Positions 1 to 8,574 of a stretch of 39,509 nt of DNA are shown here, one piece after another; positions within the stretch are counted from its first letter, which is position 1, and every line of letters starts with the position of its first letter. The position numbers were made by a program, and so were the translations under genes. This stretch comes from Hahellaceae bacterium. Its GTDB lineage: Bacteria > Pseudomonadota > Gammaproteobacteria > Pseudomonadales > Oleiphilaceae. Under the pieces are notes generated by a model. That model worked only from the letters and a program-made list of their open reading frames with translations, was not told the DNA's origin and did no database searches. Location: the NCBI GenBank assembly GCA_016744695.1, contig JADGDV010000031.1:1-39509 (forward strand), read 5' to 3'.

Positions 1-70
1 TGCTGAGAGCGTTGAGGATATTGAGGCATTGTTGCCGTGGAATTATAAAGCTCAAATTACCGAGAAATAA
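1..70 (+). CDS. IS66-family transposase, C-terminal 22 residues (partial)
   Basis: An open frame enters from the left edge and ends at TAA 68-70. Its last residues include VEDIEALLPWNYK. The block IEALLPWN is the characteristic C-terminal signature of IS66 TnpC transposases, just after the DDE catalytic domain. The DDE residues and the tnpA/tnpB accessory genes would lie to the left and cannot be seen. The stop lies 27 bp inside the element end, a normal distance for this family. Only the C-terminal tail supports the identification. Confidence 0.7.
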   Translation, partial: AESVEDIEALLPWNYKAQITEK

Positions 71-97
71 AACCACGTAGCTTCATTAAGCGCTTAC
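1..97 (+). mobile_element. Right end of an IS66-family insertion sequence (partial)
   Basis: The first 97 bases look like the end of an IS66-family element that enters from the left. A transposase C-terminus (1-70) is followed by an end whose outermost bases, read inward on the minus strand, are GTAAGCGC; IS66-family termini typically begin GTAAGCG. The boundary at 97/98 is also where tnsA similarity stops. IS66 elements duplicate 8 bp of target, so 98-105 (CTCCCTTT) should recur at the other end outside the window. The family call rests on the short transposase tail and the terminal bases. Confidence 0.7.
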
Positions 98-569
98 CTC
101 CCTTTTCACGCCAGTAAAGACGTTCAACCTGAAGCTTTTCTATTGTCCTAGGGTCACTATATGCTTTTGTTGTTTTTACCTGAATGGCAAACCGAGGCTT
201 GTCTTTTTCACTAGAATCTACGACAAAGTCACTGCTCATGTATTGATCCACACCATGATGGTTTGGATGCTCTATGCCTAGCCGTTCACTTATCTCCTTC
301 GTTACCGCTCGTTCTAATGGGAATTGTTCTCGAATATCGGTCGTTGTGGTGCGCCATTGAAGCAAAAGAAATGTTGCAAGTTCTAGATCGGAGAGCAGAT
401 GATGAGTGCGCTGACTTAAGTGGCCGAAGACGCGATGAGAACGGCCCTCAGAAGGGACATCACGAACAGTAATCCATGGTTTATAGCTTGATCCCGTGCC
501 TTGACCGCGACCTTCTTTGATCCAGCGCCTATTTTTGGCTTCTGAGTTCCAGTATTGCTTCTTGCCCAT
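57..569 (-). pseudogene. tnsA: TnsA-like Tn7 transposition endonuclease, disrupted by IS66
   Basis: TnsA is the endonuclease that, with TnsB, makes the 5'-strand cuts releasing Tn7. The frame matches Tn7 TnsA closely: RRWIKEGRGQG (15-24), HHLLSDLELA, DIREQFPL, GVDQYMSSDF, FAIQVK. The restriction-endonuclease-like catalytic triad falls at E63, D114 and K132, the same numbers as in E. coli Tn7 TnsA. Family members run to about 220-275 residues. Here similarity ends at G157, at base 98, and the last 13 residues are read from IS66 sequence. The C-terminal domain that contacts TnsC is therefore missing. ATG start at 569. The catalytic domain is complete, but transposition function is probably lost unless the remainder is supplied elsewhere. 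Confidence 0.9.
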
Positions 570-622
570 AGTAAATTGCCACCCGAACTGACTTATTTAT
601 AAAGTAGCTCAGATGGCAAAAA

Positions 623-687
623 TTAACAACTTTATTGTTTTGTTAACAACTATATTGTTTTATTAACAACTTTATTGTTCACCCACA
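623..687 (-). repeat. TnsB-binding repeats of the Tn7-like right end
   Basis: Three near-identical copies of TTAACAACTTTATTGTTT (plus-strand reading) start at 623, 643 and 663, an exact 20-bp period. The middle copy differs by one base (TATATTG). Read on the minus strand they give AACAATAAAGTTGTTAA, which resembles the overlapping TnsB sites of the Tn7 right end (GACAATAAAGTC...). The outermost copy runs into the terminal ACCCACA at 681-687. Tn7 has four overlapping sites at this end; I see three good copies here. Confidence 0.88.
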
Positions 688-711
688 GGTGGGAAGTAAG
701 CAAGTACTTAC

Positions 712-4662: not shown

Positions 4663-6060
<1,398 letters not shown>

Positions 6061-6079
6061 CTAAATTCTGTTCAGCCAC

Positions 6080-6940
6080 TTATACTGCTGCTGCACCGCT
6101 AACAATTTCAGAAAGTTCCTGAGTAATCGCTGCCTGACGTGCCTTATTATAAATTAGCTGCAGTTCGTCAATCATGTCACCTGCGTTATCGGTTGCGCTC
6201 TTCATTGCAATCATACGAGCGGCTTGCTCACATGCTGCGTTTTCAACAACGCCCTGATAAACCTGAGATTCAATAAAACGAGTAAGAAGGCCATCTAATA
6301 ACTGTTTGGCATCTGGCTCGTAAAGGTAATCCCAGTGGTGCTTGAAATCATTCTCTTCTGCAGCTTGCAAAGGCAGAAGTTGAGAAACAGTAGGTTCTTG
6401 TGTCATTGTGTTTACAAAGTGGTTGTGAACGACGTATAAACGATCGATCTTTCCTTCATCATAAGCATCTAGCATCACTTTAACTGAACCAATCAACTCG
6501 TGAGCTGATGGTTGGTCACCTAAGTGAGCTAGTGCTGCTACAACGTTACCGCCGTAGTTTTTGAAGAAACCAACTGCTTTTTGTCCAATAGCACAGATGT
6601 CAATTTCGACACCTTGTTCATTCCACTCTTTCATGTTTTTTATGGTTTTCTTGAACAGGTTACCGTTCAAGCCACCACATAAACCACGATCAGTTGAAAC
6701 GACAATATAGCCTACACGCTTAACTTCACGCTCTTGCAGATACAAGTGGTTGTATTCTGGATTTGCATTAGCAAGGTGTCCAATTACGCCACGAATTCGA
6801 TCGGCGTAAGGTCTACCTTTACTCATACGTTCCTGAGCTTTGCGCATTTTACTAGCAGCAACCATTTGCATAGCGCTGGTAATTTTCTGCGTGCCCTGAA
6901 TACTTGAAATCTGGTTACGTATTTCTTTTCCGACGGCCAT
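6080..6940 (-). CDS. atpG: F1F0 ATP synthase gamma subunit
   Basis: Gamma is the rotating central shaft of F1. The 286 residues show the long N-terminal coiled-coil helix ([33 protein letters not shown]), the central Rossmann-like domain ([18 protein letters not shown]), and the conserved C-terminal helix with [36 protein letters not shown]. The length is that of the family. It sits 89 bp after atpA and 37 bp before atpD. Confidence 0.98.
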
Positions 6941-7029
6941 AGTATCACTGCCTTTAAAGCGTTTTTACTCAATTGGGTTTACGATGCCTGCGACTAAATT
7001 GTATTAGCTCAGCAGCAGGCTATTCGTGA

Positions 7030-8574
7030 CTACCAGGTTTGAGTAGCTTTGAATTTCTCAATAGCAGCTTTGAAAGCACCAGCGATATCATTGTTATAAT
7101 CGCCTTTTTCGTTGACCTTAGCTAACAGATCCGCTTCTTCAGCGTTCATGTAAGAAATCAACGCAGCTTCAAAATCTACCACCTTGTTCACATCTATATC
7201 ATCTAAGAAGCCTTCGTTAGCAGCGTACAAAGAGATTGCCATTTCAGCAACACTCATTGGGCTATACTGCTTCTGCTTCATAAGCTCTGTAACACGTTGA
7301 CCGTGCTCCAACTGCTTACGAGTAGCTTCATCAAGATCAGAAGCGAACTGGGCAAATGCTGCCAATTCACGATACTGTGCTAACGCCATACGAATACCGC
7401 CACCTAACTTCTTGATGACTTTAGTCTGGGCGGCACCACCAACACGAGAAACCGAAATACCTGCGTTCATCGATGGACGTATGCCAGCGTTAAACAAGCT
7501 CGATTCAAGGAAGATCTGACCGTCAGTAATCGAAATAACGTTAGTCGGTACGAATGCAGATACATCGCCCGCTTGTGTTTCGATTATTGGTAGTGCGGTT
7601 AAAGAACCTGTTTTGCCTTTAACTTCACCATTAGTGAACTTCTCTACGTAATCAGCATTTACGCGTGATGCACGCTCAAGTAATCTTGAGTGTAGATAGA
7701 AAACGTCACCTGGGTATGCTTCACGACCTGGCGGACGACGTAACAATAGAGAGATCTGACGGTATGCCCAAGCTTGCTTGGTCAAATCATCAAATACGAT
7801 CAATGCGTCTTCACCGCGATCACGGAAGTATTCACCCATTGTACAACCAGCATAAGGTGCAAGAAACTGCATTGCTGCAGCATCCGCAGCGCCCGCTGCA
7901 ACAACGATGGTGTGATCCATTGCGCCATGCTCTTCGAGCTTACGCACAACAGCAGCGATAGAAGATTGCTTCTGACCAATCGCTACATAGATACACTTAA
8001 TACCTGTGTTCTTCTGGTTGATGATCGCATCGATTGCAATTGCAGTCTTACCGATCTGACGGTCACCGATGATCAACTCACGCTGACCACGACCAATTGG
8101 AACCATTGCATCGATCGCTTTTAGACCGATCTGTACAGGTTCATCAACTGATTGACGTTCGATTACGCCTGGAGCAACTTTTTCGATAGCATCTACAAGA
8201 TCTGTATTAACAGGACCTTTACCATCAATTGGGTTACCTAGTGTGTCTACAACACGACCCAAAAGTGCTTCACCAACAGGTACTTCTAGAATTCGGCCAG
8301 TACACTTAGCTTTTTGACCTTCGGCCAAGCTATTGTATTCACCTAATACTACGACACCAACAGAATCACGCTCTAAGTTAAGCGCCATACCATATGTGCC
8401 GGCTTCAAATTCAACCATCTCACCGTACATTACGTCGGCAAGACCATGGACTAGAACGATACCATCAGAAACACTGACGATTGTGCCCTCATTACGGGCT
8501 TCAGAAGATACATCGAGCTTCTCAATGCGCTTCTTGATGATTTCGCTAATCTCAGCAGGATTTAATTGCTGCAT
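7030..8574 (-). CDS. atpA: F1F0 ATP synthase alpha subunit
   Basis: Alpha forms the non-catalytic nucleotide sites of F1 and supplies the arginine finger to beta. It has 514 residues (E. coli 513). The P-loop GDRQIGKT is at 170-177; [11 protein letters not shown] is Walker [12 protein letters not shown] contains the arginine finger. The N-terminal helix [17 protein letters not shown] contacts delta at the top of the peripheral stalk. It is the fifth gene from the operon end, between atpH and atpG. ATG start. Confidence 0.99.

Follow-up and report, generated by a model that had tools for sequence, protein, structure and literature searches.

A Tn7-like remnant beside glmS, probably of a TnsE-type element carrying BREX, and its proposed internal deletion bordered by IS66-like ends in a Hahellaceae bacterium

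Introduction

Downstream of the glmS gene of a Hahellaceae bacterium (NCBI GenBank assembly GCA_016744695.1) lies an apparent right end of a Tn7-like transposon, in which tnsA stops at the border of an insertion sequence (IS). The question raised by this locus is whether the element is whole apart from that interruption or has lost the genes by which it moved, and what has become of the DNA that it carried. The window analysed here is the whole of contig JADGDV010000031.1 (39,509 nucleotides, here C74), and the locus occupies its positions 1-711. The genome amounts to 4,067,888 bp (about 4.07 Mb) in 77 contigs and is rated 99.97% complete.

The right end and tnsA

From glmS outward the layout is a 24 bp spacer, the element end, three TnsB-type sites, a hairpin and tnsA, the last being readable up to the border at 97/98. 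The features, by position on C74, are as follows.

1-97, + strand: IS66-like right-type end, with matching ends on contigs C55, C29 and C24
98-105: CTCCCTTT, the tnsA sequence adjoining the IS
99-569, - strand: tnsA codons 1-157 (of about 274), from the open reading frame (ORF), Pfam and identity to Psychromonas arctica TnsA
579-616, - strand: hairpin just in front of the start codon of tnsA, from RNA folds and an alignment of 15 loci
623-639, + strand: innermost right-end TnsB-like site (site 3), from a repeat search
643-659, + strand: TnsB-like site 2 of the right end, from the same search
663-679, + strand: outermost right-end TnsB-like site (site 1), from the same search
680-687, - strand: terminal 8 bp of the element, CACCCACA (TGTGGGTG when read inward)
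688-692: GGTGG, read as a 5-bp target duplication with its other copy at C24:20920-20924
712-2544, - strand: glmS, the 3' end of which is the attTn7 target; 68% identity over 610 residues to P. arctica GlmS

The TnsB-type repeats recur with a period of 20 bp, and the three matches found (at most two mismatches) compare with 0.05 expected, a count of three being reached in none of 100 shuffles. The 24 bp between the element end and glmS (688-711) include GGTGG as their outer part and are followed by the glmS stop codon at 712-714. A TnsB array at the right end and an insertion downstream of glmS are both present, with GGTGG as a 5-bp target duplication only if the C24 sequence and the C74 right end belong to one element.

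The tnsA reading frame extends into the IS to give an ORF of 170 amino acids (57-569). Residues 1-157 show 81% identity to P. arctica TnsA and match the Pfam TnsA-like N domain (PF08722) with E=1.5e-12. Counted in the ORF, position 63 is E, position 114 D and position 132 K, which we take to be the nuclease triad of Tn7 TnsA (E63/D114/K132); the triad is thus retained although the protein is truncated at residue 157.

The hairpin in front of the tnsA start is also present in many Tn7-like relatives. An ungapped dyad score exceeded that of a locus's own 50 shuffles in 13 of 33 loci, the C74 locus not being among them, after which RNA folds and alignment counts were applied to 15 of the 33, picked out for sequence likeness. 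In the alignment of these 15 loci 93.7% of cells pair, 8 of the 15 pairs have changed on both sides, and none of 500 shuffles did as well. Fold z-scores were -3.3 at the C74 locus, -3.5 at L017, -7.9 at L068, -4.2 at L023 and -4.2 at the plasmid locus L083; they were weak at the tnsA of a second element described below (L005, -1.3) and at L084 (0.2). The 3' arm at the C74 locus contains a Shine-Dalgarno-like GGTGG, and the hairpin may block expression of tnsA by read-through from glmS, either by masking the ribosome site or by ending transcription. A literature search at the level of titles and abstract openings returned nothing on a hairpin upstream of tnsA.

The IS66-like ends

Positions 2-67 of the right-type IS end encode the C-terminal 22 residues of a TnpC-like protein, with a stop codon at 68-70. 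The ends on C55 and C29 each differ from positions 1-97 by one base in 97, and at the far end of C24 the 38 bases from 21949 are identical to the right-type end. The end sequence is, we presume, of the IS66-family type, and the 22-residue tail matches PF13817 with a sub-threshold E=0.055; ‘IS66-like’ is therefore the safe wording. In the preliminary description of this DNA a Tn7-like right end at attTn7 had been recognised and tnsA, with its triad, had been seen as cut after residue 157 by an IS66 element. The right end is borne out by the 20-bp-period repeats, the terminal 8 bp, GGTGG and the 24 bp to glmS, and the cut gene by E63/D114/K132 and the IS border at 97/98; the family name would fit the end sequence and, with the sub-threshold protein match, is softened as above.

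The IS was read over 97-99 bp at each end, its interior being in none of the contigs examined. Six exact ends were found in the genome, two of them left-type and four right-type, so they can be paired in more than one way and two or more copies are without a partner end. None of the eight possible left/right pairings shows an 8-bp duplication, the best being 4 of 8 bases, for the flank at the start of C24 (compared by eye). The octamer CTCCCTTT has no duplicate beside the opposite IS end or any left-type IS end; against CATCAACC, which flanks the IS at the start of C24, 2 of 8 bases are alike (counted by eye). Several copies of the IS66-like element thus appear to be rearranged or unpaired in this assembly.

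Other defence genes lie near ends of this IS. On C29 a GajA-like gene (Gabija; L008 2446-3873) is cut by the same IS at about residue 475, the best model having 709 positions, and at the end of C55 there are ZorA2/ZorB2-like genes (Zorya; L009 2201-3717) about 6 kb from another IS end. Counting the BREX genes of C24, there are defence genes on three of the five IS-bordered contigs, the three that were scanned with PADLOC; the other two are C8 and C74. Neither the IS ends nor the BREX region gave a match when searched against plasmids.

Contig C24 and the left end

Contig C24 (21,986 bp) starts with the opposite, left-type IS end (1-98), which is followed directly by tnsD from about residue 364; this C-terminal part matches PF15978 with E=9.5e-9. 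The tnsE gene of this contig is broken by a TAG after codon 364 (TnsE_C, E=3.5e-38). The gene order after an HTH gene is then brxA, brxB, brxC, an ATPase with its HEC-02B-like partner, pglX, an 880-residue ATPase, a Schlafen/AlbA_2 protein, pglZ and brxL. The six core genes brxA, brxB, brxC, pglX, pglZ and brxL all match PADLOC models in this order and at nearly full length, the weakest best E-value being 3.3e-63; the order is, as we understand it, that of BREX type 1. Such nearly full coverage of the models suggests that selection may still be acting on the core genes. The two features that follow brxL are:

C24:20895-20919: left end of element 1
C24:20920-20924: GGTGG outside the left end (CCACC on the C24 strand)

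Besides its core genes the BREX operon, which looks complete, includes four others (L006 7213-8789 and 12387-16183): a HEC-02A-like ATPase and a HEC-02B-like partner, both located between brxC and pglX, and the 880-residue ATPase and the Schlafen/AlbA_2 protein between pglX and pglZ. The HTH gene before brxA (L006 2168-2341) encodes a 58-residue HTH_17 protein that matches the mad1 model and is a candidate regulator.

The left end holds a single TnsB-like site, GAACAATAAAGTTGTTAA, which is the outermost one and is identical over 18 bp to the outermost right-end site. TnsB sites were scanned for in the genomes of nine relatives and left ends compared for eight of these (G196 being left out), and all eight left ends have three sites at 0, 66-67 and 120-122 bp with at most 4 mismatches of 18; the first five relatives were chosen for three spaced sites among the matches listed, and the three further ones had fewer sites, or only some of theirs, among those matches. 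At offsets 66, 67, 119, 120 and 121 of the left end on C24 the best candidate site has 10 mismatches. The stop codon of brxL ends 6 bp inside the outermost site, and the TTTTTC after this site resembles the bases that follow the middle site in some relatives; our guess is that the left end may have been shortened by a collapse between TnsB sites. It has been reported that the Tn7 right end consists of four overlapping sites, that left-end sites are spaced and that a construct is not functional when both its ends are left ends (PMC11406308, excerpted text).

The missing transposition genes

The DNA of P. arctica tnsA-E (7,638 bp) was used as a query against the 4.07-Mb genome and gave two matches only: bases 1-470 match C74 at 79% identity and bases 5678-7568 match C24 at 77%. 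The query matches both flanks of the gap, so this search carries its own positive control on both sides. With this query as control, protein searches of the 77-contig assembly for TnsB and TnsC were empty. The family searches with PF08721 (TnsA C-terminal) and PF09299 (TnsB) matched no control genome, are uninformative alone and were replaced by searches based on relatives. Neither the C-terminus of tnsA, nor tnsB, nor tnsC, nor the N-terminus of tnsD was found in the 4.07-Mb assembly. Projected onto P. arctica, the gap extends from codon 157 of tnsA to roughly codon 364 of tnsD, or about 5.2 kb. Since neither TnsB nor TnsC was found in the assembly, we speak of a remnant of a Tn7-like element and not of a working member. 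A match of the TniQ family on C71, whose E=0.0035 falls short of the curated cut-off, was considered as the missing half of tnsD and rejected as chance; the TniQ search matched 2 of 14 control genomes, none of them above the cut-off, and around the C71 match no tns gene was recognised by eye and there was no match to the tnsA-E query.

The preliminary description had envisaged an IS66 insertion into an otherwise whole element, with the remainder of tnsA, then tnsB, tnsC and tnsD, lying beyond the IS and unassembled. That the IS interrupts tnsA exactly at 97/98 and that the assembly is fragmented into 77 contigs agree with such an insertion, which is nevertheless very unlikely: about 5 kb of single-copy DNA would be missing despite 99.97% completeness and the retention of contigs down to 3,968 bp, the opposite IS end on C24 is joined to tnsD at about residue 364, and no left-type IS end has a copy of CTCCCTTT beside it. 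A plain insertion was rejected on the tnsA remainder, tnsB, tnsC and the 8-bp duplicate, none of which was found in this assembly. These are three of the outcomes that the description had named as refuting it; a further one, the lack of a left end, did not come about, since the left end and its GGTGG are on C24, as is the C-terminal part of tnsD. The octamer at 98-105 does adjoin the IS, as described, but recurs at no opposite end. The description's own fallback, a truncated fragment or rearrangement, comes closer to the evidence, and nearest of all is an internal deletion bordered by the IS.

We hold it to be highly probable that the locus is the remnant of a TnsE-type, glmS-targeting Tn7-like element with a deletion of about 5.2 kb from tnsA to tnsD, bordered by IS66-like ends, and that the rest of the element is on C24. 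A deletion is the best reading because the IS flanks have no 8-bp duplication in common: a single IS insertion should leave one, and recombination between two copies, or an IS-adjacent deletion, fits what is seen. The interior of the IS is in no contig examined, so C24 and C74 are not directly joined, and we infer that the join runs through one unassembled IS copy. The element would have entered attTn7 at a time when an older Tn7-like element, diverged from it, was already present, and so come to lie between that element and glmS; its movement genes would then have been lost either when two IS copies recombined or through an IS-adjacent deletion; and it would now be immobile, most likely no longer working as a transposon. 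That it should be fixed in place had been predicted from the cut tnsA, and the prediction gains support from the loss of TnsB, TnsC and most of TnsD and from the short left end, on account of which TnsA supplied alone in trans would not help.

A second Tn7-like element on contig C24

Beyond left end 1 and its GGTGG, C24 continues with another right end, that of a second Tn7-like element which has diverged from the first and has different TnsB-type sites. Its tnsA (tnsA2) is interrupted by a stop after codon 52, and homology is lost past about residue 89. C24 thus shows a tandem of two decayed Tn7-like elements, at attTn7 on our reading, and the order from glmS would be GGTGG, right end 1, tnsA', IS, tnsD', tnsE, BREX, left end 1, GGTGG, right end 2, tnsA2' and IS. 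The contig with the other left-type IS end, C8, was considered as the rest of the second element and rejected: no tns gene was recognised among its ORFs, of which, by eye, two resemble an IS3 pair and another a Rho gene, and its IS flank, compared with the four right-type flanks, agrees in at most 3 of 8 bases.

The stacking seen on C24, of two elements or more, raises the possibility that there are three, one of the two ends of element 1 belonging to a third, so that the C74 right end and the C24 left end would come from different elements, each cut by its own IS. The excess of right-type over left-type IS ends (four against two) would also suit this arrangement. We think it improbable, as both ends have exactly the same outermost 18-bp TnsB-type site, the retained tns pieces do not overlap and both adjoin the same kind of IS, and no second set of these pieces was found except for the short, diverged tnsA2. 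The IS ends at the two sides of C24 are in direct orientation, a layout that permits circular excision, and C24 with one IS copy could accordingly be imagined as an excised circle or a plasmid-borne segment in place of chromosome. This is very unlikely given that on C24 the second element's right end gives way to GGTGG and then to the left end of the first, the arrangement expected at attTn7, and that tnsA' and tnsD' are complementary halves. On the preferred reading, a chromosomal remnant with an IS-bordered deletion, recombination between the direct IS copies flanking the BREX segment could lead to loss of that segment, and the island probably keeps its anti-phage BREX system in place at attTn7.

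Relatives of the element

A pattern scan of 84,980 species genomes yielded 20 TnsA relatives, mostly from gammaproteobacteria, with one from Providencia and two from Pseudovibrio; many are presumably marine, to judge by the organism names. In 18 of the 20 loci tnsA is followed by tnsB, C, D and E; the two exceptions are L020, which reaches a contig end, and L029, which has a frameshifted tnsA with no tnsB match and is likely to be itself a remnant. In a Thalassolituus metagenome-assembled contig (L010 3-10360) the 3' end of glmS is about 9.4 kb from a tnsA that is the nearest relative of the C74 gene (89% identical), a distance that suggests another stacked insertion.

Among 196 genomes searched around the source genome, 23 have a TnsA match, the source included. 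Within the genus, G004 has a tnsA frame of intact length (283 codons), and G001 and G003 are without a TnsA match. The single-contig genome G002 has a right end of two sites (at most 4 mismatches) beside glmS, next to which is a tnsA piece comprising residues 1-151 with one stop. No tnsB match was found within 1.5 kb beyond this right end and tnsA piece, and farther out there are two genes that by eye are not tns genes, the more distant resembling a fatty-acid desaturase. With the source genome, therefore, two genomes of the genus contain a broken remnant on the glmS side.

That G002 too keeps a right end and a tnsA fragment beside glmS invites the proposal that leftover right ends are retained as TnsB-binding ‘immunity scars’ that ward off Tn7-like insertions, attTn7 being sealed and host-owned and the BREX system domesticated. 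We regard this as an improbable, speculative reading, and chance decay explains the kept right ends as well as selection does.

Comparison with known systems

This is apparently a case of a defence system outliving its vehicle: the BREX genes read through over their full length, and the transposition genes and left end have decayed at three places. The survey of Benler et al. (2021, PMC8649781), as far as its excerpted text goes, began from tnsB and retained elements with both ends; if immobile remnants at attTn7 are common, tnsB-based surveys would miss them and the share of defence islands delivered by Tn7-like elements would be underestimated. The excerpts name BREX as a cargo that Tn7-like elements carry, with a table entry in which BrxC has the number 40, report an enrichment of IS in such elements and describe adjacent insertions as giving confusing multiple ends. 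In the accessible part of a second paper tnsE is located in the tns operon of relatives of the E. coli Tn7 (PMC10293859). A search of the Tn7 and BREX literature by titles and visible abstracts gave no Tn7-like BREX island gutted by an IS, which we do not take as a claim that none exists.

Each part of the locus is of a known kind and there is no new mechanism. The closest parallels are the Tn7-type elements of P. arctica (L013) and Shewanella surugensis (L011), in which the right ends are 24-25 bp from the glmS stop, the right-end TnsB-type sites are 20 bp apart, and the start of tnsA, the end of tnsD and tnsE are arranged alike. Unlike these and other TnsE-bearing, glmS-targeting relatives, the element described here has lost about 5.2 kb of tnsA-D, has a stop in tnsE and has one site in place of three at its left end. 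As in the BREX carriers in the excerpted text of PMC8649781, the BREX cargo lies between the tns genes and the left end, whereas the carrier here is without a transposition core. The tandem likewise resembles the adjacent insertions mentioned there, in that one right end lies beside the left end of another element, here with GGTGG between them, and differs from them in that both elements have decayed.
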